Shown here piece by piece: positions 3,029 to 62,013 of a stretch of DNA of 64,000 nucleotides. Location of the stretch: contig NW_004450380.1 in the NCBI RefSeq assembly GCF_000321225.1, forward strand, positions 668,068-732,067, written 5' to 3'. The notes under the pieces were generated by a model that saw nothing but the letters and a program-made list of their open reading frames with translations, ran no database searches and was not told the origin of the DNA. The stretch comes from Odobenus rosmarus divergens. Taxonomy: Eukaryota > Chordata > Mammalia > Carnivora > Odobenidae. How positions within the stretch are numbered: the stretch's first letter is position 1; every line of letters begins with the position of its first letter. Both the position numbers and the translations under genes were made by a program.

Positions 3029-3564
3029 AAGTTTTTATTTAAATTCCAGTTCGTTAACATACAGTGTGTTAGTTTCAGGAATACAACATAGTGATTCAAC
3101 GCTTCCATACAACACCCAGTGCTCATCATTAACAGGTGCAGTCCTTAATCCCCATCACCTATTTCACCCATCCTCCCACCAACCTCCTGTCTGGTAACCA
3201 TCGTTTGTTCACTATAGTTAAGAGTCTATTTCTTTGTTTGCCTCTCTCTCTCTCTTTTTTTTTTCCCTTTGCTCATTTGTTTTGTTTCTTAAATTCCACA
3301 TATGAGTGAACTCATATGGTATTTGTCTTTCTCTGCCTGACTTATTTCCCTTAGCATAATACTGTGTAGTTCTATCCATGTCTTTGTAAATAACAAGATT
3401 TCTTTCTCTTTTATGGCTGAGTAATATTCCATTATATATATATACCACTTCTTTTTTACCCATTCATCCTTTGATGGACACTTGGGGTCTTTCCATAATT
3501 TGGTTATTGTAGATAATGTTGCTATAAACATTGGAGTACATGTGTCCCTTTGAATTAGTATTTT

Positions 3565-5317: not shown

Positions 5318-8300
5318 TTTTTTAAATTTATAGACTTTATTTTTTAGATCAGTTTCAGGTTTACAGAAACATTGAGAGGGAAGTACCTAGAGTTCCCATA
5401 TACTTCCTTTCCATGCCTCCTCAGCAGTTTCTGCTGTTATTAACAGCATGTATCAATGTGGCACATTTGTTTCAATTGATGAGCCAATATTACTATTATT
5501 ATTTGCTAAATTCCACATTTATGTTAGTGCTCACTCTTTGTGTCATACATTCTATAGCTTTTGAAAAATGTATAATGATGTGTATCCATCATTACAGTAG
5601 CAAAGAGAATAGTTCCACTGCGGTAAAGATCATCTGTGCTCCATTTACTCATCCCTCCTTTCTTAGCCTCCAAATCCCGGCAATTACTGATCTCTCTACT
5701 GTCTGCACAGTTTTGCTTTTTCAGAATGTCATGTAGTTGGAATCATATAGTTTGTAGCCTTTTCACACTGGCTTCACTGACTTAGGAATAGGCAGTTAAG
5801 TTTCCTCCATGTCTTTTCATGGCTCAATAGCCTTTTTTTAATCACTGGGCAATATTCTATTGTGTGGGTATAACATAGTTTGTTTATCCATTCATCCTTG
5901 AAGGACATCTTGCTTGCTTCCAAGTTTTGGCAACTATGAACAACACTGCTATAAATATTTATGTGCAGGTTTTTGTGGATATAAATTTTTAACTCATTTG
6001 AGTAAATACCAAGAAGCTCAATTGCTGGCTCACTTGATAAGAGTATTTTTAGTTTTATAAGAAGCTGTCAAACTGTCTTCTTAAGTGGCTATACCATTTT
6101 GCTTTTTCACCAGCAATGAATGAGAGTTCTTGATGCTCCACATCCTTGCCAGCATTTGGTGTCATTGGTGTTTTGGATTTTAATGTACTTGAGGTGTGTT
6201 TTAATTTAAATTCCCTAATGACATATAATATTGGATATGATTTTCCTGTACTTATTTTCCACTTATAGACTTTCTTTTTTTAAATTGGGTTGTTTGTTTT
6301 CTTATTATTGAGTTCTAAGAGTTCCTTATATATTTTGAATACTGGTCATTTATCAGCTATGTCTTTTGCAGTTCTTTTCTCCTAGTGTGTGGCTAGTCTT
6401 TGATTCTCTTAACAGTGTCTTTCATAGAGCAGAAGGTTTTAATTTCAGTAAAGTCTAACTTACCAATTTTTTCTTTCATAGATTTTGCTTTTGGTATTCT
6501 ATCTAAAGATCATTGCCAAACCCAAGGTCATCAGTATTTTCCCCGTTCTTCTATAATTTTGTGTTTTACATTTAGATCTATGCTCCATTTTGAGTTAATT
6601 TTTGTGTAAGGTGTAAGATCTCTGTCTAGATTGGTTTTTTTTTCTTTTCTTTTTTGTTCTGCATGTGGATATCCAGTTGTTTCAGCACCATTTGTTGAAA
6701 AGACTGTTTCCATTGAATTGCCTTTGCTTCTTTATAAAGATCAGTTGACTATATTTGTTTGAATCTACTTCTGGGCTCACTTTTCTGTTCCATTGATCTA
6801 TTGGTCTATTCTTTTGCAAATACCATACTGTCTTGATTATTGGAACTTTATAGTAAATCTTGAAATTGGGTAGTGTCAATCTTCTGATATTGTTCTTCTC
6901 CTTGTTATGGTGTTAGCTATTTGGGTCTTTTGCCCCTTTATATGAATTAAAATCAGTTGGTAAATATCCACAAAATAACATGCTGGGAATTTGATTGGGA
7001 TTTTGTTGAATCTGTAGAGAAGGTTGGGAACTGACATGTCAACATTACTGAGTTTTCCTATGCATGTACATGGAATGTCTTTCCATTTATTTGGGTATTC
7101 CTTGATTTCTTTTTCAGAGTTTTGCAGTTTTACTCATATAGATCTAGTACATATTTTGTGAGATTTATATGTCAGTATTTCATTTTTTTAGTGTTAATGT
7201 AACTGGTAATGTGTTCTTATTTCAAATTCCAATTATTTATTGCTAATATATAAGAAAACAATCAATTTCTGTATATTAATCTTGTAATCTGCAACCTTGT
7301 TAGAATCACTTATTCTAGCTGTTTTTTGATTCTTTGAAATTTTCTTTGTAGAGAATCATGCCAACTTTAAACAAAACCAGATGTCTTTTTAAAAAATTAT
7401 TTCTTCCTTTCCAGTATATATGGTTTTTGTTTCTTTTTCCTATCTTGTTGCATTAGCTAGGATTTTTTGTATGATGTTGAATAGGAGTGATGAGAAGGGA
7501 CATCCTTGCCTTGTTCTTGTTCTTAATGGGAAACTATCTATAGTCTCACCATTGAGTATGACATTAGCTATATGTTACTTATAGATGCTGTTTATGAATT
7601 TGAGGATGTTTTCCTCTATTTCTCATCTGCTGAGAATTTTTATCTTGAATAGCTACTGGAATTTGTCACTTGCTTTTTCTATCTATTGGTATGAACGTAA
7701 ATTATTTTTCTAGCTTGTTGGTGTGATGGATTACATTAATGCCTTTTCAAATATTGAACCAACCTTGTATACCTAGAATAAATTCCATTTGGTCCTGTTG
7801 TACAGTTCTTTTTATACATCATTGCGTTTAATTTGCTGATATTTCGATGAGGACTTTTGTATTTATCTTCATGAGATATATTATTGGTCTCTAGTTTTCC
7901 ATTTCTGTAGTGTATTCACCTGGTTTGGGTATTAGGGTGATGCTGGTCTCAAAAATGAGTTAGGAAGTATTCCCTCGGATATTTTATGGAAGATGTTGTA
8001 AAAAAATGGTATAATTTGTTACTTAAATTTTTGGTGTAATTCACAAGTGAACTAATGGCAGGCCTGGTGCTTTCTGTTTTAAAGGTTATTAACAATTGAT
8101 TCAATTGCTTTTATAGATGTAGGCCTTGTTCAGACTATTTCTCCTTCTGTGAGTTTTGATAGATTGTGTCTTTCAAGGAATTGGTCCGTTTTATCTAAAT
8201 TACAAAATTTATGGGCATAGAGTTGTTCATGGTATTCCTTTGTTATCCTTTTAATGTCCATGGGATCTGTAATGATGACTCTGCTTTGATTTCTGATGTT

Positions 8301-14396: not shown

Positions 14397-17035
14397 GCCA
14401 CATTACTGAATTGCTGTATGAGATCTAGTAATTTGGGGGTGGAGTCTTTTGGGTTTTCCACATAAAGTATCATGTCGTCTGTGAAAAGAGAGAGTTTGAC
14501 TTCTTTGCCAATTTGAATACCTTTTATTTCTTTTTGTTGTCTGATTGCTGTTGCTAGGACTTCTAGTACTATGTTGAACAATAGTGGTGAGAGTGGACGT
14601 CCTTGACGTGTTCCTGATCTTAAGGGAAAGGCTCTCAGCTTTTCCCCATTGAGGATGATACTTGCTGTGGGTTTTTCATAGATGGATTTTATGAACTTGA
14701 GGAATGTTCCCTCTATCCCTATACTCTGAAGAGTTTTAATCAGGAAAGGATGCTGTATTTTGTCAAATGCTTTTTCTGCATCAATTGAGAGGACCATACA
14801 TATGGTTCTTCTCCCTCCTCTTATTAATGTGTTCTATCACATTTATTGATTTGCGAATGTTGAACCACCCTTGCATCCCAGGGATAAATCCCACTTAGTC
14901 ATGGTAGATGATCCTTTTAATGTATTGTTGGATCCTATTAGCTAGGATTTTATTGAGGATTTTGGAATCCATATTCATCAGGGATATCGGTCTGAAATTC
15001 TCCTTTTTGTTGGGTCTTTGCCTGGTTTGGGGATTAAGGTAATGCTGGCCTCATAGAATGAATCTGGAAGTTTTCCTTCTGTTTCTATTTTTTGAAACAG
15101 CTTCAGGATACAAAATCAATGCACAGAAATCAGTTGCTTTCTTATACACTAACAATGCAGTTGTACAAAGAGAAATTAGAGAAATGATTCCATTTAGAAT
15201 AGCACCAAAAACCATAAAATACCTCGGAATCAACCTAACCAAAGAGGTAAAGGATCTATACTCTAGGAACTACAGAACACTCATGAAAGAAATTGAAGAA
15301 GACACAAAAAGATGGAAAAACATTCCCTGCTCATGGATCAGAAGAATAAACATTGTTAAAATGTCTATGCTACCCAGAGCAATCTATACCTTCAATGCCA
15401 TCCTGATCAAAATTCCAATGACATTTTTGAAAGTGCTGGAACAAACAATCCTAAAATTTGTATGGAATCAGAAAAGACCCCGAATCGCCAAGGAAATGTT
15501 GAAAAAGAAAAACAAAGCTGGGGGCATCCTGTTGCCCAATTTCAAGCTATATTACAAAGCAGTGATCACCAAGACAGCATGGTACTGGCACAAAAACAGA
15601 CATATAGACCAATAGAACAGAATAGAGAGCCCAGATATGGACCCTCAACTCTATGGTCAAATAATCTTCGACAAAGCAGGAAAAAATATGCGATGGAAAA
15701 AAGTCTCTTCAATAAATGATGCTGGGAAAATTGGACAGCCACATGCAGAAGAATGAAACTCGACCATTCTCTAACACTACACACAAAGATAAACTCAAAA
15801 TGGATGAAAGACCTCAATGTGAGACAGGAATCCATCAAAATCCTAGAGGAGAACATAGGCAATAACCTCTTTGACATCGGCCACAGCAACTTCTTTCAAG
15901 ATACATCTCCAAAAGCTAGTGAAACAAAAGCCAAAATGAACTTTTGGGACTTCATCAAGATAAAAAGCTTCTGCACAGCAAAGGAAACAGTCAACAAAAC
16001 AAGGAGGCAAAACAAGGAGGCAACCCACAGAATGGGAGAAGATATTTGCAAATGACACTACAGATAAAGGGCTGGTATCCAAGATCTATAACGAACTTCT
16101 CAAACTCAACACCCAAAACACAAATAATCAAGTCAAAAAATGGGCAGAAGACGTGAACAGACACTTCTCCAAAGAAGACATACAAATGGCTAATAGACAC
16201 ATGAAAAAATGTTCATCATCATTAGCCAGTAGGGAAATTCAAATCAAAACCACATTGAGATACCACCTTACACCAGTTAGAATGACAAAAATGGACAGGG
16301 CAAGAAACAACAAATGTTGGAGAGGTTGTGGAGAAAGGGGAACCCTTTTACACTGTTGGTGGGAATGCAAGTTGGTACAGCCACTTTGGAAAACAGTGTG
16401 GAGGTGCCTCAAAAAATTAAAAATAGAGCTACCCTATGACCCAGCAATTGCACTCCTAGGTATTTACCCCAAAGACACAGATGTAGTGAAAAGAAGGCCA
16501 TATGCACCCCAATGTTCAAAGCAGCAATGTCCGCAATAGCCAAACTGTGGAAAGAGCCGAGATGCCCTTCAACAGATGAATGGATAAAGATGTGCTCCAT
16601 ATATACAATGGAATATTACTCAGCCATCGGAAAGAATGAATACCCAACTTTTACATCAACATGGATGGGACTGGAGGAGATTATGCTAAGTGAAACAAGT
16701 CAAGCAGAGGAAGTCAATTATCATATGGTTTCAGTTATTTGTGGAACACAAGGAATAGCATGGAGGACATTAGGAGAAGGAAGGGAAAAATGAAGTGGGG
16801 AAAATCGGAGGGAGAAATGAACCATGAGAGACTATGGACTCTGAGAAACAAACTGAGGGTTTTAGAGGGGATGGGGGTGGGAAGGGTGGGTTAGCCCAGT
16901 GATGGGTATTAAGGAGGGCACGTACTGCATGGAGCACTGGGTGTTATACGACAATAATGAATCGTGGAACACATCAAAAACTAATGATGTATTGTATGGT
17001 GACTAACATAACATAATAAAATAAAATTAAAAAAA
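14397..17035. mobile_element. LINE-1 with 5' inversion (twin priming)
   Basis: 14397 to about 15110 is antisense ORF2 RT region (minus-strand frame 14378-14797 with [12 protein letters not shown] and [13 protein letters not shown]). From about 15110 to 17035 the element runs sense, resuming with [17 protein letters not shown] through the ORF2 C-terminus and 3' UTR to a short A-rich tail. A 13-bp duplication AATTACTAACCCT flanks it (14384-14396 and 17036-17048). The two halves meet within a few codons of each other in ORF2. Stops and frameshifts break ORF2 in several places. Confidence 0.95.
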
Positions 17036-20537: not shown

Positions 20538-21342
20538 GTGAGAATTTGGCTGCTTTTCTCTTATGCATCTACTTTTTTTGTACTTTTTCTATTGTGGTAG
20601 ATATACGTACCATTAAATTTAGCGTTTTTGCCATTTTAAAATTTACCATTTAACCATTGTAAGTGTACGGCTCAATTGCATTAAATACAATCACAGTGCA
20701 CAACACTATCCATTTCCAGAATTTTTATCATCCCAAACAGCAACTCCATAGCCATGAAATAATAACTTCCATTCCCCTCTATCCCAACCCCTGACAACCT
20801 CTTCTACTTTCCATCTCTATAAATTTGCCTAGTCTAGGTACCTGACACACGTGGAAACAAACAATATTTGTCCTTTTGTGTCTGGCATCTTTCATCTAGC
20901 ATAATGTTTTCAAGGTGCATCTGTGGTATAGTACATGTCAAAATATCATGCCTTTTTAAGGGTGAGTAATATTCCATTTACATATATATCACACTCTGTT
21001 TATCCATTCATTTGCTCATGAACTTTTAGTTTGTTACCACCCTTTGGCTCTTGTGAATAAAGCTACCATGAACATCAATGCACAAGTATCTGTTTTCATC
21101 CCTACTTTCACTCCCCTGGGGCATATAACCAGAAAGGGAATGGTTGGATCATATGGTAATTCATTCTTTTCTTTTTCTGCTCCTCAGACTCAGTTATTTT
21201 AACTGTCCTATCTTCAAGTCTGCTGATCCTTTGTTCTGCTGCTCACATCTGCTCTTCTGTGCCTTTAGGAATTTTTCATCTCAGTTGTTGTACTTTTCAG
21301 CTCCAGATGTGTGTTTAGTTCCTTTTATAATTTATTTTCTTT

Positions 21343-23500: not shown

Positions 23501-24941
23501 GTCTAATGACCCAATTTAACGTACATTCAGAAGAGTATGCAAAACAAAAATGTGCAGCTTAATGATTTATCTTCAAATGATTTATCTTCAAATGTGATTG
23601 TCACCTGTAAGATGTGTAGCATTGCCCTGTCCCAGAAGCCTTCTTTGTGACCCCTCCCAATCACTGCCCCTCATTCCCTTAGAGCTAATCACTTGACTTT
23701 CATGAAAATTTCCTAAACAGGATCTCTAGCGACTAGTTGATACCTGCCTATTTTTTTAAACATTGTATAAATGGTGCCACACAGTATGTATTTGTTTTGT
23801 GTCTGGCTTATTTTGTTCAACCTTACATTTGTTAGATTCATACACATTGTGGCAGAAGTTTGTTCGTTTTCACTGGTGGGTCTACTGTATAAATATACTA
23901 CAATTCACTTATCTATTCTACCATTGATGGATTTTTGTATTGTTTCCTATTTGGGGCTATTGTGAATATTGCTGCTATGGACATTCTTTAATATGTCTTT
24001 GGTATGCATGACACACATTTATGTTGGGTGTGTACCTTGGAGTGGAATTGTTGATCTTGAGGTATGTGTATGTTCACATTGAATGGTTAGGGTGAGCATT
24101 TTGGGTGGATTTTATCAGTTTACACTCCTACAGCAGCATAGGAGTGATACCATTGCTCCATATTCCTGCCAACACATTATATTGTCAGTTTTTCTGGTGG
24201 GCTTGTAGTCCTATCTCATTGTGATTTTCATTTGAATTTCTCTGATGATTCAATTGTGAGATTGAATATCTTTTCATGTATTTATCGGTGTCCTCCTTTG
24301 TGAGGTATGTGTTCAAACATCCTACTCATTATTTTGAGTTATTTGACATTTTTTTTTAAATTCTTTATGTATTCTGGGTATAAACCCTTAGAATATATCT
24401 ATTGTAAATATATTTTCCCATTCTGTAGCTTGCCTTATAATTGTCCTGATAGTTTTCTTTCTCTCTCTTTTTCTTTCTTCTTTCTTCATGACTAAAATTT
24501 CTTAATTTTAATGTAATCTCAGTTTTCCCCCTTTATTTTTTAGTGCTTTCTGTATCCTTTATCAAAAATGTTTCCCTGCCCCGGGTCATAAAAATATTCT
24601 TTTATATTATCTTCCAGAAACTTTATAGTCTTGCTTTTAACATTTAAATCTACAATCTACCAGTCTTTATTTTGTATATGATGTGTTGTGTAGGGGGTCA
24701 TAATTTGTTCTTTTCCTGTATGGTTATTTATCTATATCCCAGTACCATTTGTCAAAAAGACAGTCCTTTGTCTGGTACCTTTGTCATAAATCAGGTGTAC
24801 ATATATGTCTGGGCTCTGTGTTTTATTTCTTTGGTCTTTGTGCTACTATCATCCTCTCTTGATTGTTACAGCTCTATACCTGGTAGACTACATACCACAT
24901 CTTCCAACATTGTACTTTATCTTCAAGAGTGTCATTTCTGG

Positions 24942-25474: not shown

Positions 25475-25679
25475 CGTTATTTATTTATTTTTAAAGATTT
25501 TATTTATTTATTTATCAGAGAGAGAGAGAGAGCACAAGCAGGGGGAGCGGCAGGCAGAGGGAGAAACAGGCTCCCCACTGAGCAAGGAGCCCGATGTGGG
25601 ACTCTTTCCCTGGACCTTGGGATCATGACCTGAGCTAAAGGCAGGCAGACGCTTAACCGATGAGCCACCCAGGCATCCC
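25475..25679 (-). mobile_element. Can-SINE
   Basis: Full-length antisense element from TTTTTAAAGATTTTATTTAT to GAGCCACCCAGGCATCCC. It ends the recognisable old L1 on its left. Confidence 0.92.
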
Positions 25680-25715
25680 GAAGATAGCTTTATGATATTA
25701 TATCATCTAATCCTT

Positions 25716-26799: not shown

Positions 26800-26864
26800 G
26801 AGAGGCTAAAACTTACTTATGAAGAAAAGGGTGAGATCCTGGAATCTCAATTGAAGTTTTTGAG
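26800..26864 (+). CDS. SDCCAG8: SDCCAG8 exon 7 (65 nt, phase 0-2)
   Basis: This short exon has acceptor TTTTCTAAAG and donor GTAAAG. It encodes ERLKLTYEEKGEILESQLKF, then Leu and the first two bases of an Arg codon completed by exon 8. It corresponds to human residues 226-247, with the exon end at human c.740. Charged heptads (LKLTYEEK, LESQLKFL) restart the coiled coil after the exon 6 linker. The length is not a multiple of three, so skipping would shift the frame. The shortness and the plain GTAAAG donor make it a likely weak exon (inference). Confidence 0.95.
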
Positions 26865-29398: not shown

Positions 29399-30076
29399 CC
29401 TCAGCCCTTTCTTTTAGCAGACTGCATATTTCCCGCTAATAGCTGCTACTTAAATCTTTATGACTGGTAAATTCTATATAACTTCTTTCTAAAAGAAGAG
29501 AGCCCACTTTCTTTTGAAATAGCTCTTTATAGAACTTTGTGATTAGATGATTTTTTAGTTTTTTTTCTTCCTAAAGAAGAATGGGCAACAATAAATGACT
29601 CGCAGATGAAATCCATGAGCTTCTAAGGTACTGTACACATTTTAAGGGTTAACACTTGGAATAGGGTATTTCCCTCAATTCAAGAATGTTGTGTTATGTT
29701 GCCTCGCCTTTTTATTAGGAGAAATGACTTAGGTTTTGTATGTGGAGTTTTATTTTTTGATCAGTGGATGATATAACATAATGGAGATGGATCCTTTGAG
29801 AAGAGAGCTGGTATCAAGAGGCAGACTAATCTGTGTTAAAATCTTACAAGAACTTGGGCTAATTATTTAATATATTCAAGTCTCATTTGACTCAGAGTGT
29901 CAATTAGGGTAATCACACTTCCGTTTCAGGGTTGCAGGAAGAATTAATCAGGTATTGTATACAGAGCACCTCATAAGTTAAACACTCGTAAGTAATAGTA
30001 GCAGTTATCTGTGGGATGATACAGGTGCCATAGTGTACGTGGTCATTCGCTAGAACTTTCTTTCCCTTCTTTTCAG

Positions 30077-30265
30077 GAAAGACCTAGCTGAATATCAGAA
30101 AAATTGTGAAGATCTTAAGGAGCGACTAAAGCATAAAGAGTCTCTTCTTGCTGCTAATATATCTAACTGTGTTGGTGGCCTTTGTTTGAAATGTGCTCAG
30201 CACGAAGCTGTTCTCTCCCAAACCCATAATAATGTTCACGTGCAGACCATTGAAAGACTGACTAA
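30077..30265 (+). CDS. SDCCAG8: SDCCAG8 exon 8 (63 codons, phase 2-2), with Cys/His cluster
   Basis: Acceptor CCTTCTTTTCAG, donor GTAAGT (perfect consensus). It completes Arg247 and reads KDLAEYQKNCEDLKERLKHK, followed by LLAANISNCVGGLCLKCAQH and EAVLSQTHNNVHVQTIERL. The middle breaks the coiled coil with Gly-Gly and a C-x2-C-x2-H-x7-H cluster (human C283, C286, H289, H297). Human c.845_848delTTTG (p.C283*), a known nephronophthisis allele, falls in this block, which confirms the numbering. The last two bases AA join G of exon 9 to make Lys310. Confidence 0.98.
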
Positions 30266-30419
30266 GTAAGTAGCTTCTCCACACGGAGGCTCCATAACAT
30301 GGAAAACTGCGTCTTTAAAGGAGCATTGTGTTCTTTCATCCCCATGCTGCCTCATGTGGGGTTGATGCTGAGCTTCAAATAAAATGGATTTTATTTTATT
30401 TCACTGGAGCTTTCTTGAA

Positions 30420-30560
30420 GACGGAACAGGTGGGTTCTGCCAGCTGTGTGTGACCAAGTCACTGAGACAGGTAATTTTACTTCTCTTAGCCTCAGTCTCA
30501 TCTTGAAGGAGAGAATCGAAGTAGATAATCATTACAATTCTGTTCATGTCTATGAGTCTA
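30420..30560 (+). mobile_element. MIR fragment
   Basis: CAGCTGTGTGTGACCAAGTC then CTCTTAGCCTCAGTCTCATC matches the MIR core. Confidence 0.75.
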
Positions 30561-30615
30561 TAATTGCAAATCCAGCACTATTTGTAACAAAAATGAGTTT
30601 GAGAGGAATTCTCTT

Positions 30616-30808
30616 TTTAAATATTTATTTATTTGAGAGAGAGGACAAGGAGCATGAGTTGGGGGGTGTTGGGAGGAGTGGCAGAGGCAGAGGGAGAAGC
30701 AGGCTCCCGCTGAGCAAGGAGCCAGATGTGGGGCTCAATCCCAGGACCCCAAGATCATGGCCTGAGCCGAAGGCAGATGCTTAACCGATTGAACCACCCA
30801 GGGGCCCC
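30616..30808 (-). mobile_element. Can-SINE
   Basis: Antisense. Perfect 16-bp duplication TGAGAGGAATTCTCTT at 30600-30615 and 30809-30824. Confidence 0.95.
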
Positions 30809-31179
30809 TGAGAGGAATTCTCTTGATTTTGCCAAGTCCTGGATTTCTCAGCTGAAGTTTAGGTAGAGTGAATTTTTATCATGTCTTCATCACGTGCCTG
30901 CTGTTAGGAATATTGGGAGTGCATCTGAAGAAGGACCCTTAGATCCACTATCAATATTTGAAGATGGACTAAGGACAAGTTCCAAATGAGCTTTCATGCA
31001 GTCGAAGTTTTCATCTAGGCTGAAATACTACAGTTCTCTATGTACATCCTTTTTGTCCCATCTTCACTCTTCCAGGGAAGGCTTTTCCCGTGAAAAGGTT
31101 ATCCTGCGGAATTCGAGAATTGTTATTTAATACACCATCCAATGGTGATTTATACTGTGTGTTCTTCTGTGCCCCCTAC

Positions 31180-31440
31180 TCTTCTGTATGCTGAATATCA
31201 CCCCTCTCTGTTTGGACTTATTTAAATAGCCCAGACATTAAATAGCCTACCGCCTCCAAGAAGTAGTCTCTCGCCAACCTCACCCCATCTTGCCCTCAAC
31301 TGACTTAGGCTCCTTTCTTCTGTGATTTTATAGTAGATTGTGTATACTTGGAGGTGGCACCTGTGATGTGTTTATTTCTGTGTCCCTGGCTTCTGGCAGA
31401 GGACCTGGCCTGCGGTAGACACTCAGAGAAGGTTTGCTGT
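31180..31440 (+). mobile_element. Probable L2 3' end
   Basis: Diverged L2-like text: ATTTCTGTGTCCCTGGCTTC, GGACCTGGCCTGCGGTAGAC. Confidence 0.5.
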
Positions 31441-31494
31441 TCATAGGACAAGGCATTTGGGAGTCAGAGTTCCTCCAGTTGGAACTGGTGTAGA

Positions 31495-31865
31495 GAATGG
31501 AAAGACTTAGTCGTTAAAGTCAGACTACTTTTACCCCAGTGTTTTGACCTTTGCACAAATTACTTTACCTCTCTGAGTCTGGACTTTTCTTGTTTGAGGG
31601 AATAATACCTACATGTTGGGATTTTACTGGGGCACTTAGCCTTGTGGCTAGAGCACAAACTGCTTAGACTCATATTCTGGTTCTACTAGTAACTGCCCGC
31701 ATAACCTCACGAAAGTTATTTAACCTCTCATGCCTCAATTTCCCCATTTGTAAAACGGAGATAAAATACCTTAATAGCGTTATTTTGAAGGTTCTTTGAA
31801 AGAATACCTATATGGTGCTTAAAACAGTTCCTGCCAAATAATAAATGCTCTATAAATATTAAAAC
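31495..31865 (+). mobile_element. Two adjacent MIR copies
   Basis: 31495-31620 has TTACTTTACCTCTCTGAGTC. 31630-31865 has TAACCTCTCATGCCTCAATT, CCCCATTTGTAAAACGGAGA and AATAATAAATGCTCTATAAA. Both are in + orientation. Confidence 0.8.
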
Positions 31866-32129
31866 TCCTCTGTACCTCTTCTACTCCAAAAGCAATCAAA
31901 ATGTCTGGTAGCCATGGTTTCCATACATAACTAACCTGTTGGTTGTTATATAGAAAGTGAATTTCTCCAGTATGGACTGACTGGTAGTTTTTATGATCTG
32001 AGCTGATGGTTCTGCTTTTTGTTAAATACTATATTAATTAAATATATTATTAAATTATTCTTATATATTTCACATAGCTATAAAACTTATTAAGTGTATA
32101 TTAAATATATTTCCAGATCCAACTACGAT

Positions 32130-32290
32130 GTGGCAAACATTTATTATATACCAAGGACTCTGCCAGGCAGTTTAAAAACATAATCTTTTTTAACCTTAGT
32201 AAAGCATGTATGAGGTAAATATTACACCCATTTTGCAGCTAGGGAAGCTGAGACTCAGAGGAATTAAAAATTTGCCTGTTTACATTTGAA
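32130..32290 (-). mobile_element. MIR
   Basis: Antisense pattern ATTTTGCAGCTAGGGAAGCT, GAGACTCAGAGGAATTAAA. Confidence 0.75.
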
Positions 32291-32923
32291 AAAAAAAAGA
32301 ATAGAACTATACTTCACAGAAACAAATTCAAGATGGTTTAAAGACCCAGATATAATTCAGCCTATAAAAGCGTTAGAAGAAAATATAGAAAATTTTCTTT
32401 ATGGCTTTTGGCTAGGTCAAGTCCTGAACATGGTATGGAAAATGAATGCCATAAAGGAAAAAAATATATACATTTAAATTCATTAAAAAGAAACCTTTTA
32501 TGATACGATACAAATTGAAATTAAAAGACTGGGGAAAATATTTGCATGTTACATAACAAAAAATTGGTGCACTATCTCAAGAACATCCTTTGAAACAGAC
32601 ATTAAGGACAAACTGCCCAGTTGCAATGTGGATAAAGAATAAGAACTGGTGAGCAATCAAATAGGAAGATGTCAATGTATGAGAGGGTATTCACTCTGTT
32701 ATTATTCAGGGAAATACAGATTTTTCAAAAAACCGACTCTTCAAGTTGGTGAAAATTAAGGAGATTGATAGTGAAAAGAATTGGGGAGGCCATGAGTGAG
32801 TGAATATTTTCAGACACTGCTGGTGGGAACTGTAAGTCGATATTACTTTGTAGGGTAATTTAGCATTATCCATTAATAGTTGAACTGTGTATTACATGTT
32901 TCAAAATCTACCCCAGAGAACAA

Positions 32924-33158
32924 TGTGCATAACATAATTTATCTAAACCTTTGAAGGGTATTTAGGTTGTTCACACCTAAAAAAAACACTTCTTTTCCTC
33001 CAGTTTCTGTACTCACAACACTTCTGACACCTTGTGTGCATTTTCCACACCAAGCAATTTTCTAATTTTCAGTTGATGCTAACTCAATTGGGACATTAAT
33101 TTCCTGGAGTCAGCACAGACCCCGCAGGTTAGTGCTCAGTCCCATAAGACTGTCCCCC
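32924..33158 (-). repeat. Left arm of 235-nt inverted repeat
   Basis: Reverse complement of 33962-34198, with about five substitutions and three small indels (about 97 % identity). It contains the LTR 3' end plus about 50 bp of flanking L1, both inverted relative to their originals on the right. Confidence 0.93.
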
Positions 33159-33212
33159 TAAACGTTTTGTGCACAATGGGGCCATTCTAGGGAATGCTTT
33201 CACAGCATTACT

Positions 33213-34140
33213 TGTAATTGGTGTTGTGACACTGTGATATGATAAGAAATACATATTTTGGTCTTTATCTCTAGTCCCTGGCACAGAGCTCCTAAAACCC
33301 CTGTAATGTCTTAAATGATAAGAACAATAGGAACATCCTTTGTTAAATTTGGTTTCTGTCCCCTGCTCCTGAAATAGATCTGGAACATCAAGGTGAAAGC
33401 AACATCTTTTGTTATTCTTACAAGCTTCTTTCAGCCACACCTGAGTTTATGTTAATGAGATGACTTTTGGAAACCCACTAAGGATGGGGGAGGTTAGTCA
33501 CTAGGGGAACCATCCATGTGATTAGAGGATTGGAACTTTCAGCCCCTATTCCCCAATCTCTGGGGAGCAGGCAGGGACTAGAGATAGAGTTCAATCACCA
33601 ATGGCTAATAATTTTATCAATCATGCCTAAAGAACCTCCCTAAAAACCCTAAACTATGGAATTTGGAGGGCTTCTGGCTTGGTGAACATATCAAGGTGCT
33701 GGGAGGGTGGCACACCCAGAGAGGGCATGGAAGCTCCACTCTGCTTCCCACACACTTTGCTCTGTGCATCTCTTCCATTTAGCCCTTTGTGACTTGTATC
33801 CTTTATAGTAAATGGGAAATAGTAAGGCACTTTCCTGAGTTCTGTGAGCTGTCGTAGCAAATTATCAAGGCTGTGCAAGGAGTCATGAGAACCCCTGACT
33901 TATGGCCAGTTGCTCAGAAGTACACGTGACCATCTGGGACTTGCAGTTGGCACCTAAGGCGGGGGGAACAGTCTTATGGGACTGAGCACTAACCTGTGGG
34001 GTCTGTGCTGACTCCAGAAATTAATGTCCCAATTGAGTTAGTATCAACTGAGAATTAGAAAATTGCTTGGTGTGGAAAATGCACACATAAGGTGTCAGAA
34101 GTGTTGTGAGTACAGAAACTGGAGGAAAAGAAGTGTTTCT
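33213..34140 (+). mobile_element. Old endogenous-retrovirus LTR (ERVL-like), no viral genes
   Basis: I recognise this eutherian LTR pattern but not its exact name: TGATATGATAAGAAATACAT, GGAACATCAAGGTGAAAGCA, TCACCAATGGCTAATAATTT, GAGAGGGCATGGAAGCTCCA, ATCCTTTATAGTAAATGGGA (decayed poly-A signal region). It stands alone in the L1 with no gag/pol/env sequence. Confidence 0.7.
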
Positions 34141-34198
34141 TTTAGGTGTGAACAACCTAAATACCCTTCAAAGGTTTAGATAAATTATGTCATGCACA
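33962..34198 (+). repeat. Right arm of 235-nt inverted repeat (original)
   Basis: It covers the LTR 3' end and the first ~50 bp of L1 beyond it. L1 continues naturally past its outer edge, so this arm is in its original place and the left arm is the copy. The loop between arms is 803 nt. Confidence 0.93.
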
Positions 34199-35929
34199 GT
34201 AAAAGAAAAAGAGTGAGGTAGATCTCTTTGTACTAATGTGGGACTAAGCTCCACAATATGTTGTTGAGGGGAAAAAATAAAGATGAAAAAAACACGTCTG
34301 AAATGAAACCCATTTGTATTTTTATTTTTTGAAAAAAGCCCATGCACAACCATACTATGTATTTTCTCCAGGTTCATACATAGGCACAGAAAAAGGTTTG
34401 AAAGAATAAGCACCCAATATTTAACAGGAATTACCCCTGGAGAGGGGGAGGAAGGCACCAAAATCGAAAGTAGGTGTCAAGTGGGTCTTTACCCATGTTG
34501 GTAATTACATTTACAAGGAAAATATAATGAAAAATTCATTTAAAAAGGGCAAAAGGCATATTCAAAGTCACGCAGATGAAGAGAAACAGAGTTTAACTAA
34601 GTGATCTAGCATAGCCAAACCAATAAATAAAAGACAGCATTTTTTTTCCCCTGTTGCCTTTCATATTATTCTTGTAGGTCATGAGAAAAATATTTTAAGA
34701 GGATGCTACAATGTTTACATTGATTTCAAGGCTGGCAGTCATTTAGAAATCAGATTCTTCCTTGGTTATGTATTCCTTTGTGACTATTCTACATTTTCGC
34801 TCTTAGCCTTTTAAAATAAATGTCAGCCTTCTCTGTTCAGTTTTCTGCTTTGTCAGCATATCATGAGCTCATGTTCTGCTTTCCTAACAGAGTACAGTGG
34901 AAGGCTCCTGCTTTTATTGTCAATGAAACCTGTGTCTATAGGATTCCTTTGGCCTCAGCTGGTGTTCAGCTTCTTTCAACTTACTAATGCAGAAGGCTGA
35001 ATATTGGAGTGTTATGCTGCCTTTGAAGAGTGGCCAGCACTTTTTAGGTCTGGATTTCTAGTTTTCTGCATAATTAGAAGCCTGGACCCTCAGTAAGCTG
35101 TATCATAGAATTTCCTGCAGGACTCTAAGATGGAATTTTAAAAAATTATATCCCAAATATGATAAATCAAAAGAATCTTCTGGCCTCTACTTGAAATGTG
35201 GCATTGTGACACGAGCTGTAAGTTCCTCTGTTGAACCTTTAGCACAGAATGTATTGGCTATATGACAGGAGTGCCTCGAGCACTTGAAAGGGACAGGATC
35301 AGGCATGACCTCGAGATCAGACAACCAGTATGTTTGTGGCATTGTGTTAGGACCATAAGGACTTTTTGGAGAGTATACTTAATAACTGTTGATGACATTG
35401 GATACATTTTAAAAGTTGCTTTGAAGTCCTCCTAGTGTTTCTGAACTGCCTTTCACTCAGGCCTCATTATGCCTTGAGGTAAGTAAGAGCAATGACAGTA
35501 AACTCTCTTTCTTGAGTAATGATCAAAACACCTTCGAATGATAATCAGGATGGAACTGCTTTGTAATTTGATCCTTTTCTATAGCTCCTAGTGTCTTGGA
35601 GAAGTTTCAGAGTACCGTTTAGAAAGGAGAAGTGATTACTACTGTACTATCCTGGGACATTAGCCCAGCTTGTGAATTTTGAGTGGGTCTTGGCAATGTG
35701 GTGTATAGTTGGCTTTGAAAGACTATGGCAGGAACTTCCCAGAAATGAGGAACAAGGAAATGTTGTAGTCAGCCTTCTAGACTTGCTTTTAAAAGACAGG
35801 GATAATACTAATGATGCTTAATGATGCTTGAAACTGGTACTCACTGTGGAATAACTGAGAAATTTCAGGCATTTCTTAGACACCTTATCTTTCAAGATGA
35901 AGCTCATGCTCATATATCAGACCAACTCT

Positions 35930-36490
35930 CCCTTTTCCTTATTTTAAACATCTGACCCAGATTATTCAGGGACTTTCTCAGCCCTTGTTGCTCTGATTGT
36001 TGCACTAAATTCCTTAAATACTCCACGCTCATTAGCTGGTTCATCCCAGAACTCGCACCCGCTCCTTGCCTCGACTTGTGCCTTGGCTGCTCTTTCAGGG
36101 GTCTTTTGATCGTGGAATGTGGCAATGTTGATGCCGTGTTGCTTGCTCTGCTTCGAAAAACTCCTTGATGACACTTAGATGGTGCTCTTGAAGCACTCGC
36201 AGACCTTTGGCCATTGCAGATGATGATTTGGCGAACCGCCACCTCACATACTGGTAGGTCATGTGTATTTGTACAGCTTCCCACTGGGAAAGGCACACTC
36301 GGGCCTGGCTCTGGGCTGGGCTTGTGGACTGGGAGATCTGGAGTAGGCCTGCAGCGGCCCGGGTAGTTCTCCAGCGTGGCCAGGATTGACTGCTCCTGAA
36401 GGCCAGATAAAGCGGAGTAGGGTTGGGGCTGGGGCTAAAAAAGGAGCTAAATCAAGAAGGTGACCTAGGAATGGGACTGGAAGCAAGGCC
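35930..36490 (-). pseudogene. Unidentified antisense open frames, possible decayed retrocopy
   Basis: A GC-richer block has overlapping minus-strand frames, one of 128 aa (35910-36296) and one reading QYVRWRFAKSSSAMAKGLRV, then LQEHHLSVIKEFFEAEQATR. Shifting between frames near 36120 extends it to ERAAKAQVEARSGCEFWDEP and VFKEFSATIRATRAEKVPE. The composition looks protein-like, but I do not recognise the family. I see no poly-T that would mark a retrocopy's 3' end. It could be chance. Confidence 0.3.
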
Positions 36491-37848
36491 TCGTGTTGAA
36501 GACAGGGCTAACATGCCCAGAGTTGTGTCTGTTTCAAGGGCTTGCTATTTGGTTATGGGCTGACTGAGTTGAAACAAAGCAAAACAAAAAATGTAGGGAC
36601 TGAGTGGATAATCCTAAATTATCAAGATGGTTCCTGCACCTATAAGTGTGTGTGCAATTTAAGCATCTCTCTGGAGCTTCCCAGCTGATCTGAGGGCCGC
36701 CTTAAAGCATGGGTACATTTCTCTTCCAGAAAATTGGAGTGTGTCAGTCAAGTGGCCATACAGATGTTTAGTATCATCATTTCATGGGTTCACTGTTGAA
36801 TGATGAGGTTAACAAGACATCAGTATTTGGGGGTGTTTATCTTTGATGATTGTCTGTCATCTGAACTTGATGAGCCGATAGTCTGAAAAGTTTTTGAACC
36901 AGAACACCTAAACTCTTTAGTCTCCAATTCTAAACAGCCTAGTGACTTTTTAAATCTAGATCCTAAGATATTAGAACTGGGAGGAGTTTTACTTTACCTC
37001 TTTTGATGCCCTCCTATGGCAGAGTCACTACTTGTTCGTTTGGTCTTTTGTCCTTTATTCCACTGAGTATGTGCTAATGTGGCAAACACCTCTCAGCAAG
37101 AGGACATACTGAAAAGAGATTAAATGTATTAAGTGTTAAGTCTCCTGTAAGAAACAGATTTGTTCAATTTTGATCCTGTTGTGATCTGTCAGCATACTCT
37201 CTACACAGAGCTTTTCTGTTAATACTTTAGTTGGAACCTTGGCTTCAGTGAGGGCACGGCATCACAAAGAGATCAGAGCATCACTGAATGCTTTCTCAGT
37301 CCGACTTACAACTGTAAGAAAGGTGACGATCTGATGCCCATTTTGACTTGTTGTCCTTAAAGAGCGAATTATTTTCTAGAGTCATACGTTCTAGTTGGAC
37401 TGCATATTCTCAATGAAGCTAGTACTCTTTTATGTTAGAGCTTTTTTGAAATGCAAATAAATATAAATTCACTTTGCCTTCAAGTAATCTGTGTTTGACT
37501 TAACGAGAATGATTTAACCTTAGTTTGATTCTTCGACTCTTTCACATAATCATTGTGTTTGATTATATTTGATCAAAATAATTAACTCCTATTTTCATTT
37601 CCTTTAGAACAAAAGAAAGAATAAATTATTTTTCTCAATTCAAAACACACCAGGAAATTCTAAAATGAAGATCACCATGCTCTTATGAATTTTATGATAG
37701 TTGAAGCCATTCTTTTTTTTTTAAACAAAACGGGCTTTTATGAAACTGATAATAATTGTAACTTTGTTCAGTATTACATATTTCTTAAAATATGAGTGCT
37801 TTCCAAATACCACAAATAGTTTGAATTATTTTATCTTTGATTTTTTTA

Positions 37849-38033
37849 GGGGTGCCTGGGGGCTCAGTCAATTAAGCGTCTGCCTTTGGCTCAGGCCATG
37901 ATCCCAGGGTCCTGGGATCGAGCCCCACATCAGGCTCCCTGCTCAGTGGGGTGTCTGCTTCTCCCTCTCCCTCTGCCACTCCCCCAGCTTTTGCTCTCTC
38001 TCTCTGTCAAATAAATAAAATCTAAAAAAAAAA
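37849..38033 (+). mobile_element. Can-SINE
   Basis: Head GGGGTGCCTGGGGGCTCAGT, near-consensus body and AATAAATAAAATC tail. Flanks are T/A runs, so the duplication is unclear. Confidence 0.92.
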
Positions 38034-39173: not shown

Positions 39174-39312
39174 GGAAAGGGATGACTTAATGTCTGCGCT
39201 GGTCTCCGTCAGGAGCAGCTTGACAGACGGACAGCAAAGAGAAGCCAGTGCTTATGAGCAGGTGAAACAGGCTATGCAGATGACCGAAGAGGCCAACTTC
39301 GAGAAAACCAAG
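39174..39312 (+). CDS. SDCCAG8: SDCCAG8 exon 9 (139 nt, phase 2-0), GC donor
   Basis: The acceptor is TTTCTGTGCTGACAG. After completing Lys310 the exon reads ERDDLMSALVSVRSSLTDGQ, then QREASAYEQVKQAMQMTEEA and NFEKTK, matching human residues 310-356. The end is set by the join TK|ALIQC with exon 10. The bases at that point are AAG|GCAAGT, so the intron begins with GC, the rare U2-type GC-AG class, with otherwise consensus flanks. No in-frame GT donor nearby gives a correct join. Human c.1068 is the last base of this exon, and c.1068+1G>A is a known splice allele as I recall. Confidence 0.96.
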
Positions 39313-42589: not shown

Positions 42590-43356
42590 CTTCTCAACCA
42601 TGGCACTATTGACATTTTGGACTACATAATTCTTTGTTTTAGAGCTTGTATGGCCTGCACATCATAGGATTTTTAGCAGCATCCCTGGCCTCTATTCACT
42701 AGATGCCGGTAGCATACCTCCTCTTCCCCAAGTTCTGGCAACCAGAGATGTCTCCATATATTGTGAGGGGTTCCCACAGGTATGTGTGCATGTGTGTGTG
42801 CATGTGCATGTGTGTGTGCATGTGTGCATGCATGTGTGTATATGTGCACGTGTGCGTGTGTGCATGTGCGTGCATGTCTATGTGCATGTGTGTGTATATG
42901 TGCGCCTGCATGTGTGTGCATGTGTGTGCATGTCTATTTGCATGTGTGTGTATGTGCACGTGCATGTGTGTTCATGTGTGTGCCTATGTGTGTATATGTG
43001 CGCGTGCATGTGTGCGCATGTGCATGCATGTGTATATGTGCACGTGCATGTGTGTGTGTGCCTATGTGTGTATATGTGCGCGTGCATGTGTACGTGTGCA
43101 CGTGTGCGTGTGTGCATGTGCGTGCATATGTCTATGTGCATGCATGTGTATATGTGCACGCGTGCATGTGTGTATATGTGTGCATGTGTATGCATGTGTG
43201 CGCATGTGCACGTGTGCGTGTGTGCATGTGCACGTGTGCATGCGTGTGGGTGTGTATATGTGTGCATGTGTGTGCACGTGCATGCATATGTCCATGTGCA
43301 TGCGTGTGTATATGTGCGCATGCATGCTGAATTGCCCCCAGGTAAGAACTACTCCC
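42590..43356 (-). mobile_element. MER20-like hAT element with an expanded core
   Basis: The left part reads CTTCTCAACCATGGCACTAT, TGACATTTTGGACTACATAA, TTTAGCAGCATCCCTGGCCT. The right end reads AATTGCCCCCAGGTAAGAAC. The two ends of one ~200-bp element are separated by the TG/CA array at 42780-43327. Confidence 0.8.
42780..43327. repeat. ~550-bp (TG/CA) alternating purine-pyrimidine array
   Basis: Irregular TGTGTGCATG-type units (TGTGCATG, TGTGTGCACG, TATATGTGCGCG), almost without a break in purine/pyrimidine alternation. All six frames stay open because stops are rare in such sequence. A strong candidate for left-handed Z-DNA. Confidence 0.97.
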
Positions 43357-47168: not shown

Positions 47169-48060
47169 CATTGCTTCTTGATATGTACATTATCTGCCAC
47201 AAAACAAACATCTTGAAAATGGGAGATAGGGACAGACTGACTGATAGGTTTCTAGCAAGCAAGAGTTTATAAATTAAAAATAATTATCATTATTTATAAG
47301 TTATCTGCTTAAAACATATTGACAGCATTTTAGTTTTGTGGGCTATAGTTCATAAAAATGAAAACATTTTCATAAGTTTTTATGTGAATTTTAAATTTAA
47401 ATTTTTAAGTGTGAATTTTGTTATTTCTCATAAGGTCTTTAATTCTAGAATTGTGAATTCTTTGATCACAAGGATTTCTAGAAACCTAGCCCTAGCACTT
47501 GGGAAGGACTTTCATATGTCCTAAAATAGGTTTCCTATTTTAAAAAATTGAGTTGACTAGATATAAATTTGTTACGGAAAATGTTTTGGCCCCATTAAGA
47601 CAGTAACCCATACTTGTTGGTTTAATAAAACTAGGGCTGGGAATATCAAGTCCAGTAAATTATGTTTTAATAATGTATTAATGTGGCCAGCATAGAATAA
47701 CCACAATTAAAGAAATTTCCCAGAAGAGAAAAGGTCCCTTGAGGATTGAATCAATTGGGTGGGGGAGTAGTCTAATTCCCTCAACTTCTCAAGGGCAACA
47801 ACCACTTCCACCAAAAAGGGGCTGTGCTCAGGGAAAGAAAGAAGCTACCCCCTTTGGAACCACTGGGAGAAATGGCAGATGCAGGCCCCCAGATCAACTT
47901 GGGCCTCTCTGAAGCTGTAACTGACCATTTACTGACATCGCTTGTGAGAATTCAATTATGCCTTTATGGAGTGGTTAGACAAGCAGAATCAGGTAGTACT
48001 GGATCAGCTGGGATTCTGGAAACTGGGAGAGGGAGACCTGGAATGAAAAGGTAAAGCTTT

Positions 48061-48262
48061 GGGGTGCCTGGGTGGCTCAGTGGGTTAAGCATGTGCCTTC
48101 TGCTCATGTTGTGATCCCAGGGTCCTGGCATCAAGCCCCCAGTCCTCCTTGGGCTCCCTGCTCAGCGGGGAGTCTGCTTCTTTCTCTCCCTCTGCCACTC
48201 CCCCTGCTTGTGCTCTCTCTCTCTCTCTCTCTCTAATAAATAAATAAATTCTTTTTTTTTGT
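48061..48262 (+). mobile_element. Can-SINE
   Basis: Perfect duplication AAGGTAAAGCTTT at 48048-48060 and 48263-48275. The tail has lost its poly-A and ends in T9. Confidence 0.95.
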
Positions 48263-59000: not shown

Positions 59001-59135
59001 ATGTTGTCCCTGTCTCAAAATATTGCCCAACTGGAGGCCCAGGTTGAAAAGGTTACAAGAGAGAAGACTTCAGCTATTAATCAACTCGAGGAAGTTCAAA
59101 ACCAGCTTACTTCCAAGGAAATGGATGTCACAAAG
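59001..59135 (+). CDS. SDCCAG8: SDCCAG8 exon 11 (45 codons, phase 0-0)
   Basis: Acceptor TTTCCTCTTATAG, donor GTACAA. It reads MLSLSQNIAQLEAQVEKVTR, then EKTSAINQLEEVQNQLTSKE and MDVTK, matching human residues 408-452. Regular hydrophobic spacing (L-I-L-V-V, then I-L-V-L) supports a dimeric coiled coil. The first codon is ATG by chance; it is not a start. The donor lacks the usual +5 G. A LINE-1 3' end stops 66 bp upstream, so the branch point must lie in the short unique stretch or in the L1 itself. Confidence 0.97.
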
Positions 59136-62013
59136 GTACAATGTGAGATTTTAGTTTAAAATTTTTTCCTAATGTACTAAGCCCAGAAAGCAGTTTGGAA
59201 TGGAAAAGTTTTGTTATTTAAGTTAGTAAAGATCCACATAATGGTCATTAAGCCAGCATTTACTTATTATTGGCAGGCCCTCTGATGGGTGCTGCAAATA
59301 CAAAAGATGAATTAGTCACAAATAATGTCCTGGAAGAACTGAAGGTTAAGTGGCTGAGACAGACTTATCAATAAGCAAGTTTCATTACTTTAATCATTGA
59401 ATATTTGGTCAAATTTATATTTCTAAATTAGATGGGAGAAATGTTTGCCAGAGAAAGCATGGCTTTGGTCTCTGCAATGATAGTAAAAGAGATTTATTTA
59501 CCACATGAAGAGGGTGCTTAACATAAAAAATTCTCCACCTCCCATTCCTTTTCAGACCTGGTCTCTAAAATCAAGGCTCAAATACTAAGTGTCTTATTTT
59601 ATTGGTCCCTAAATTTATACTTTAAAATATCACAGTGTCAAATAAATAAATAAAATCTTAAAAAAAAAATAAAATATCACAGTGTCTGTGCTATGGGCAT
59701 TACAGACTTGTAAACCAAAACTAAATTGTTTATAGTCTTCGCTCGTCACTGTAAGGTATGTATTTATGAAACACTAAAGTCCATGTGGATTTCAGCAATA
59801 AGTTGCTTTAAAACTAAGCAACTAAATATAGGCATGCATGATGTAATAAATTAAATCGATTGTTTTCTTTTTACCAATTTACACAGATGATTTTGTTTGA
59901 AATGCATACCTTTTCATACTGCATTTTACTTATCAACATATTTCCCTAAATGTTGACACATTTGTAATGCCATTGTTACTTATAATTTAGTAATTAAAAT
60001 TACCTTTAGTATATGGAAGAAACAAAGCCTATTTTTTTCTTGTTTTTCCCTTCAATTTCTGTAATTCTCCATTTGCTTTCTAAAATTCAAGCTAGCTAAC
60101 GTTAAAGTTTTAAAATACCATATTTGCCAATATCATCAATGTGTTTGTGTGGAGGGTAGGGGTAGAAGTAAGGGAATGGATATAGAGGGCTGGCAGTGGT
60201 TAATCCAGATTTATGGGGGAAAGCTGGTGGTGAGAGGGTCCAGTCCATTGCAGGAAGAGAACTTTCTGTTGGAATGTGTACGGTAAAGATACCCCTTCTG
60301 TCTTTAGAACCATCCAGAAAGACTCAAGCATCAGAAGCATGCCTCGCGGTGGCTCCAACCCTGAGATATCATTCCACTTCAATTTAATTTGCCCGTTTAT
60401 TTTAGATAAACTTAAGGGTTATGGATAAACTTAGCAGATGCTAAAGTGAAAGTAGTAAGGCAAGGGAACTTTAAAAATAAAATTAAGAGATGAAATAATT
60501 TTAAATAAAACAATGCTTAGACATATAATAATAAACAATAATTTTGTATTGGTATTGAGTTTGAAACACCATGGCTGGGTAATTATAATTTTTTGGTATT
60601 ATCAATTTGGGTTTTTTTTTCATTTCATTCATGTATATAAATCAAATAGGTTGGAATAAGAATAAGAAAGCAAGCAAATTTGGGCCCCTTTAATTTTTTT
60701 CTATCATTCTTAATTTTAAACTTTATTTAGCCTTAGAATTAATAACTTTTTGTAAATTACTAGTTTTTTTTTAATGAGAGGGGTCAGCTCTGACACATTC
60801 AAGGCATTTGAATTTCAAATCAAATTTTTTGTAATTTTATTCTTTTTCTAGCATTTTGAGGGCCATTGGGGAGAAACTTACTGACTTTCCTCTGTCTTGT
60901 CACTATAACCTTTAGACACAGATTTGTTTATTTTTCAAAGTATTTTTTATTTGATTATGGGAGATAGATATAGGTTTTATGAGATTCTAGTACCTCAATA
61001 ATGATGAAAACTAATTTCTGAAGTGCTAATCATCAGTTTTAGAGAAATACCAAAATTGGAAAAAGTTTCAAGCAACTATAACCTTTAGATGATACATGAT
61101 TTTTAAAAAGTTGTATTTGTATATCAGAGACTGAATTAGCAGACTTGTGTGTTAATTAATCTCTCTGCAGGTTCTCAGTTATCTCAAAAGCTCATAATTT
61201 CTTTGTTTAAATTTATCTGCTGATTGCATTTTCCAAATTTATTTACCTGTCTGTAGAGGCCCTGGATTGGAAAAAAAAAATTGTATAAAGAATGATACAC
61301 AACACTCTTAAGATGCTATGTATACTCATTATTTAATGATATGTTAAAATCATTTCACTTATATGTATATTTTCCTTTTAAGTTGAATGCTACTGTTATA
61401 AATGGTTCCAGTCTGTGCCTTTTACCAATGTTTATCAACTTAAATACATCGCACTGTGCTTAAGATTGACATTATCTACAAAGATTACAGTAAATACTGG
61501 GTTCTACTGTACACCTAAATACTATATAGTCTCTTAGCAGAGAGAAAAATTCCTTTATAAATTTCCTTAAATAAAAGCCTAACTGCTCAAATCTTTAAAG
61601 GAAAACTTTACTATATAGAATGTCTATTTAAACCACAACAATTTGAATGAATATTCACATAGCTTAATATTTTAATTAATGATTTTATCTATATAAAATA
61701 GAGATGATAATGCATTTTGAATGATAATGTGCAATTGAAACTGTTATTTTACACAAAAAAATTGGGGCACATTACTTAAATTTCTTAGTTATACATTTCT
61801 TTATCATAATTTGAAATTGTTAAACTCAGTAATACCTGATATTGCCTTCACATCTTAACAGAATACGTTGAATATTCTAACAGAAAATGCCGTTCTTAGG
61901 AAAGTTCTATTGTATTTTATTTATACGACCTCTAGGGGGCACCAAAAGATCTAATTGCAGGCATTGCCTGGTAGATTCCCGCAACTATTGATCTAGTTTT
62001 TACAATCTAACAG
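59136..62013 (+). other. SDCCAG8: SDCCAG8 intron 11
   Basis: GTACAA...TAACAG. Except for a 31-bp SINE tail insertion at 59640-59670, the intron looks like unique AT-rich DNA with no recognisable mobile element or coding block. Confidence 0.85.
59640..59670 (+). mobile_element. Can-SINE tail-only insertion (31 bp)
   Basis: Just AAATAAATAAATAAAATCTT and an A-rich end, flanked by a perfect 16-bp duplication AAAATATCACAGTGTC (59624-59639 and 59671-59686). Confidence 0.9.

Follow-up and report, generated by a model that had tools for sequence, protein, structure and literature searches.

How did two nearly identical sequences come to face each other in opposite orientation in one short region of an intron, with old repeats around and between them? 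The question is raised by the window analysed here, a stretch of 64,000 nt from Odobenus rosmarus divergens (contig NW_004450380.1, positions 668,068 to 732,067; coordinates below are those of the window), in which two arms are reverse complements of each other:

32924-33158, plus strand: left arm, inverted copy of 34198-33963 (self-comparison, alignment)
33963-34198, minus strand: right arm, the source, made up of 182 LTR-like bases, a 5-nt flanking repeat and 49 L1 bases (alignments)

The arms, 235 and 236 nt long, were aligned by blastn with 96.2 % identity over 238 columns (E ~1e-107). In a global alignment of 237 columns they differ by 6 substitutions, all of them transitions, one 2-nt indel and one 1-nt indel, and an ungapped listing splits the pair into three pieces with 97, 97 and 95 % complementarity. 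The near-identical inverted arms described in the first-pass annotation are confirmed by these comparisons, and its count of five substitutions and three indels belongs to the blastn version, an equivalent alignment of the same arms. Its bounds for the arms also held, except that the right arm starts at 33963 rather than 33962 and the loop between the arms (33159-33962) is 804 rather than 803 nt long. In a self-comparison at E 1e-10 this is the longest inverted pair of the window; the remaining ones extend over 43 to 203 columns with 78 to 95 % identity, and several of them look like SINEs. Some repeats of the window presumably resemble the CAN-SINEs of caniform carnivores. A second inverted pair, 25493-25683 and 48057-48254, lies far apart and aligns over 203 columns with 78 % identity.

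Which arm is the original can be read from the repeats that surround the pair:

32776-32923, plus strand: L1 to the left of the insert (informal L1 reference, profile)
33168-33219, plus strand: middle piece, probably L1 resuming past the insert, beginning TGTGCACAATGG; weak alone (informal L1 reference, profile)
33220-33224, plus strand: GGTGT, left copy of a candidate target-site duplication (flanking-repeat listing)
33225-34144, no strand assigned: LTR-like block of 920 nt, starting with TG and ending with TA (flanking-repeat listing)
34145-34149, plus strand: GGTGT, right copy of the candidate target-site duplication (flanking-repeat listing)
34150-34338, plus strand: L1 to the right of the LTR-like block (informal L1 reference, profile)

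The left arm contains, in inverted form, both the right end of the LTR-like block and 49 bases of the host L1, and therefore derives from this locus. The right arm runs on into both the LTR-like block and the L1, and is therefore the source, as had been proposed. The direction of copying is thus from right to left, from 34198 to 33963 of the source. Because the boundary between the LTR-like block and the L1 lies inside the copied piece, both this direction and the switch points are nearly readable from one sequence.

The flanks match an old L1 3' region; the comparisons were made with an informal reference stretch rather than a library entry, and with a profile combining it with five further L1 copies from the window. 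When 32924-33167 is left out, the L1 reads on across 32923/33168. Without the insert, the joined flanks scored 714 against the informal L1 reference (best of 300 shuffles 467), while the same flanks with the inserted arm kept scored 558 (best shuffle 475), which upholds the view that the left arm is a local inverted copy set into the same L1. In the profile test the joined flanks reached 41.7 bits but only 21.5 when the arm was kept, and the right and left pieces by themselves gave 20.6 and 11.8, respectively; the inverted arm alone matched profile interval 239-288 with 7.1 bits, the same interval as the right piece. The left piece did not rise above shuffles with a shorter version of the informal reference, and with the reference extended upstream it scored 272 (best shuffle 267). 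Scored as a 58-nt piece, the middle piece fits the expected L1 interval with a weak score of 100 (best shuffle 99), and it scored 31 with the shorter reference (best shuffle 33). By itself it had no match to the L1 profile. When it was shuffled within the joined flanks the best shuffle (729) exceeded the real score of 714, and in the profile test the real middle piece ranked first of 21 by a margin of 0.2 bits. Taken singly, all five of the other L1 copies scored below the best of 200 shuffles against the joined flanks. Clear L1 matches come from the right piece and the joined flanks only. The informal L1 3' reference also matched at 65-71 % at 16312-16639, 5853-6157, 3341-3546, 23886-24000 and 20946-21072.

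For the segment 33225-34144, an LTR that duplicated 5 bp of its target is modestly supported by the TG...TA ends and GGTGT flanks, since among the 8 flanking repeats listed the GGTGT pair is the sole one in which the enclosed sequence starts with TG. No second copy of the block was found in the window at E 1e-3, and one exact 20-mer from it had no match in a set of viral contigs that may omit records near the genome of the window. Rfam at gathering scores gave no match either.

The junctions of the insert, which is 244 bp in size (32924-33167), are of two different kinds. Three features are needed to describe them:

32924-32929, plus strand: TGTGCA at the outer edge of the left arm, microhomology of the first switch (motif search, junction test)
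34193-34198, minus strand: TGTGCA at the outer edge of the source (motif search, junction test)
33159-33167, plus strand: 9-nt filler TAAACGTTT at the return junction (exact-copy search)

At the outer junction the L1 (AACAA-TGTGCA) and the inverse source (TTTTAC-TGTGCA-TGACATAA) share 6 nt, and a match of at least 6 nt was seen in 0.22 % of 200000 random inverted junctions drawn from 30001-38000. The proposal that the first switch took place at a 6-nt match is therefore borne out, and a motif search located TGTGCA at each of the three sites named for it, 32924, 34193-34198 on the minus strand and 33168. In the window as a whole the motif occurs 71 times (34 expected), the excess coming mostly from a repeat array at 42785-43300. 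At 42780-43317 there is a long array of imperfect TGTG/GCATG-type repeats with several overlapping periods, from 22 to 98.

At the inner junction the copy ends with CCCCC (33158) and is followed by TAAACGTTT and then TGTGCACAATGG, whereas the source continues CGCCTTAGGTGCC. The filler lies outside both arms, and its exact sequence does not recur anywhere else in the window. TGTGCA was also put forward as the homology of the return switch, which is not supported, given the different continuation of the source and the 9-base filler; the copy of the motif at 33168 is not a part of the copied piece but the sequence with which the target L1 itself goes on. As an alternative return homology, GTGC found 8 nt past the arm end in the source was considered and rejected, as about 16 % of random cases contain a 4-nt match of this kind. 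As a 6-nt direct repeat, TGTGCA marks the borders of the insert at 32924 and 33168. Compared with the informal reference, the target lacks a few bases at the insertion point, and the L1 falls short by about 18 nt at 34189-34206, where the source has its outer edge. With the L1 shorter than the reference at both sites, small losses are possible; the deficit of about 18 nt may be due to chance, to a subfamily difference or to the event itself.

On balance, we lean towards a germline templated inverted insertion through template switching of the MMBIR/FoSTeS kind, that is, towards replication and a single event. A strand being copied through the old L1 would have reached AACAA (32923), where TGTGCA would have let it pair with the opposite strand at 34198, some 1.03 kb ahead. 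Backward copying would then have covered about 235 nt of L1 and LTR-like sequence as far as 33963, followed by a return to the next L1 base (33168) with 9 extra bases, and the outcome would be a gain of 244 bp and two inverted arms enclosing a loop of 804 nt. The template that the insert repeats in inverse is nearby, about 1.03 kb away in the empty allele. The four switch points, in the order 1-4-3-2, were read from one sequence and leave the 9-nt filler over.

This kind of mutation is already known. The MMBIR model gives junction microhomology of 2-5 bp (PMC2621351). In the account of MMB-TI (MMBIR-linked templated insertions), the inserted piece lies close to its template, in inverse orientation and with microhomology at its sides; such insertions were germline variants in fibroblasts of two people, where the classical kind accounted for 10 of 103 curated calls in one and 11 of 99 in the other, and the search covered insertions of read length with templates within 100 bp (PMC8421209). 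The present insert is likewise near and inverted to its template and has microhomology, but 235 nt were copied here from about 1 kb away and the microhomology is clear at one junction only. In the work on four-point template switches, the order 1-4-3-2 makes a single inverted repeat (PMC7954356), and exit at 32923, copying from 34198 to 33963 and return at 33168 follow this order. In the great-ape gold-standard set of short-range events described there, the copied length is 12 at the median and 128 at most (PMC7954356), so that 235 nt is a long copied piece, and the distance is also larger. The locus is a clear example of its kind with a copied piece longer than in the compared great-ape set.

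Several points speak against a switch: the return junction is without significant microhomology, and a 9-nt filler is equally usual in end joining; the weak middle L1 piece, the single L1 copies that did not exceed shuffles and the possible small losses count on the same side. The main rival is break repair with a copied patch, in which one end of a double-strand break in the L1 would have annealed to the source and been lengthened there or, in a variant, a local fragment of DNA or cDNA would have been joined in (a class 2 templated sequence insertion or a polymerase-theta-like event). Class 2 insertions, as described, have no target duplication, carry microhomology or untemplated bases and derive from a distant template (PMC5110952). 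Microhomology on one side and untemplated bases on the other (the filler at 33159-33167) are such signs. However, the template is local, about 1 kb away, the arm carrying the LTR-like/L1 boundary of the locus itself, and the target bases are without clear loss. Neither of these observations is decisive, and this origin, in either variant, is possible though less likely.

The differences between the arms bear on the age of the event as well as on two further explanations. The 6 transitions in 234 sites correspond to a divergence of 2.6 % (0.9 to 5.6 %). With assumed rates of 1.2e-9 and 2.2e-9 per site and year this gives 11.0 (4.0-24.7) and 6.0 (2.2-13.4) million years, respectively, which suggests an age of about 2-25 million years on these rates. 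As had been pointed out, the arms are much more alike than the L1 and its relatives. Since the L1 is old and the LTR-like block would by inference be old too, yet the arms diverge by only 2.6 %, they might have been inserted long ago and kept alike through gene conversion. The 8 differences are distributed evenly along the arms, up to either end (KS p 0.64, with little power for 8 events), which speaks mildly against conversion, and we consider it improbable. An assembly or amplification artefact is very improbable, as a chimaeric read or an assembly error is expected to give identical arms and 8 differences were observed. The least credible explanation is that the L1 machinery inserted an antisense transcript of local origin (class 1, marked in PMC5110952 by a target-site duplication of at least 5 bp, poly(A), AATAAA and a TTTT/A site): the TGTGCA direct repeat at 32924 and 33168 can be read as the duplication, although it is also explicable as microhomology, but the three other features named there are missing, the insert having neither a poly(A) end nor AATAAA in either orientation and the site being ACAA/TGTG (CCCAGAGAACAA/TGTGCACAATGG), and on this reading the recurrence of TGTGCA at the edge of the source would be mere chance.

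The insertion that we ascribe to template switching lies between two exons proposed on the plus strand by a scan for splice sites and open frames:

30077-30265, plus strand: proposed SDCCAG8 (CCCAP) exon upstream of the arms (exon scan and Pfam match)
39174-39261, plus strand: proposed SDCCAG8 (CCCAP) exon downstream of the arms (exon scan and Pfam match)

The joined translations of both exons match positions 245-336 of Pfam CCCAP in one stretch (E 1.4e-48). A further proposed exon, 59001-59142, also matches CCCAP (E 2.5e-17), and another at 26800-26864 gave 19.9 bits, under the cut-off of 27. We take the CCCAP-matching host gene to be SDCCAG8, and from the matches of the flanking exons the arms therefore sit in an intron of this gene, with about 2.7 kb between them and the upstream exon and about 5.0 kb to the downstream one. 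Among the matches listed on SDCCAG8 intron inversion or carnivore template switching there was no report of this insertion, which does not prove that none exists.

That the transcript could form a strong hairpin agrees with folding predictions. The predicted fold of the sense strand (32924-34198) has -670.1 kcal/mol and 231 pairs between the arms, enclosing the 804-nt loop, and the loop alone is predicted to fold with -247.5 kcal/mol. As both arms are within one intron, the exon ends would not be brought together, and any effect on the RNA is a prediction. In the hairpin-making template switches of PMC8794818, one event likewise yields a ready stem; unlike those cases, the stem here is intronic and predicted, with 231 pairs, an 804-nt loop and no sign of function.

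A neutral intronic scar is the default reading, and apart from its length and the potential hairpin the locus looks like an ordinary one. It would be a long shot to suppose that inverted switches of a few hundred bases over about a kilobase form a size class missed by short-range and copy-number surveys and a regular source of near-perfect intronic dsRNA, and that this one gives an edited or processed hairpin in the SDCCAG8 pre-mRNA, possibly with its arms kept alike by conversion. A single copying error can hand a gene a potential hairpin of 231 pairs.
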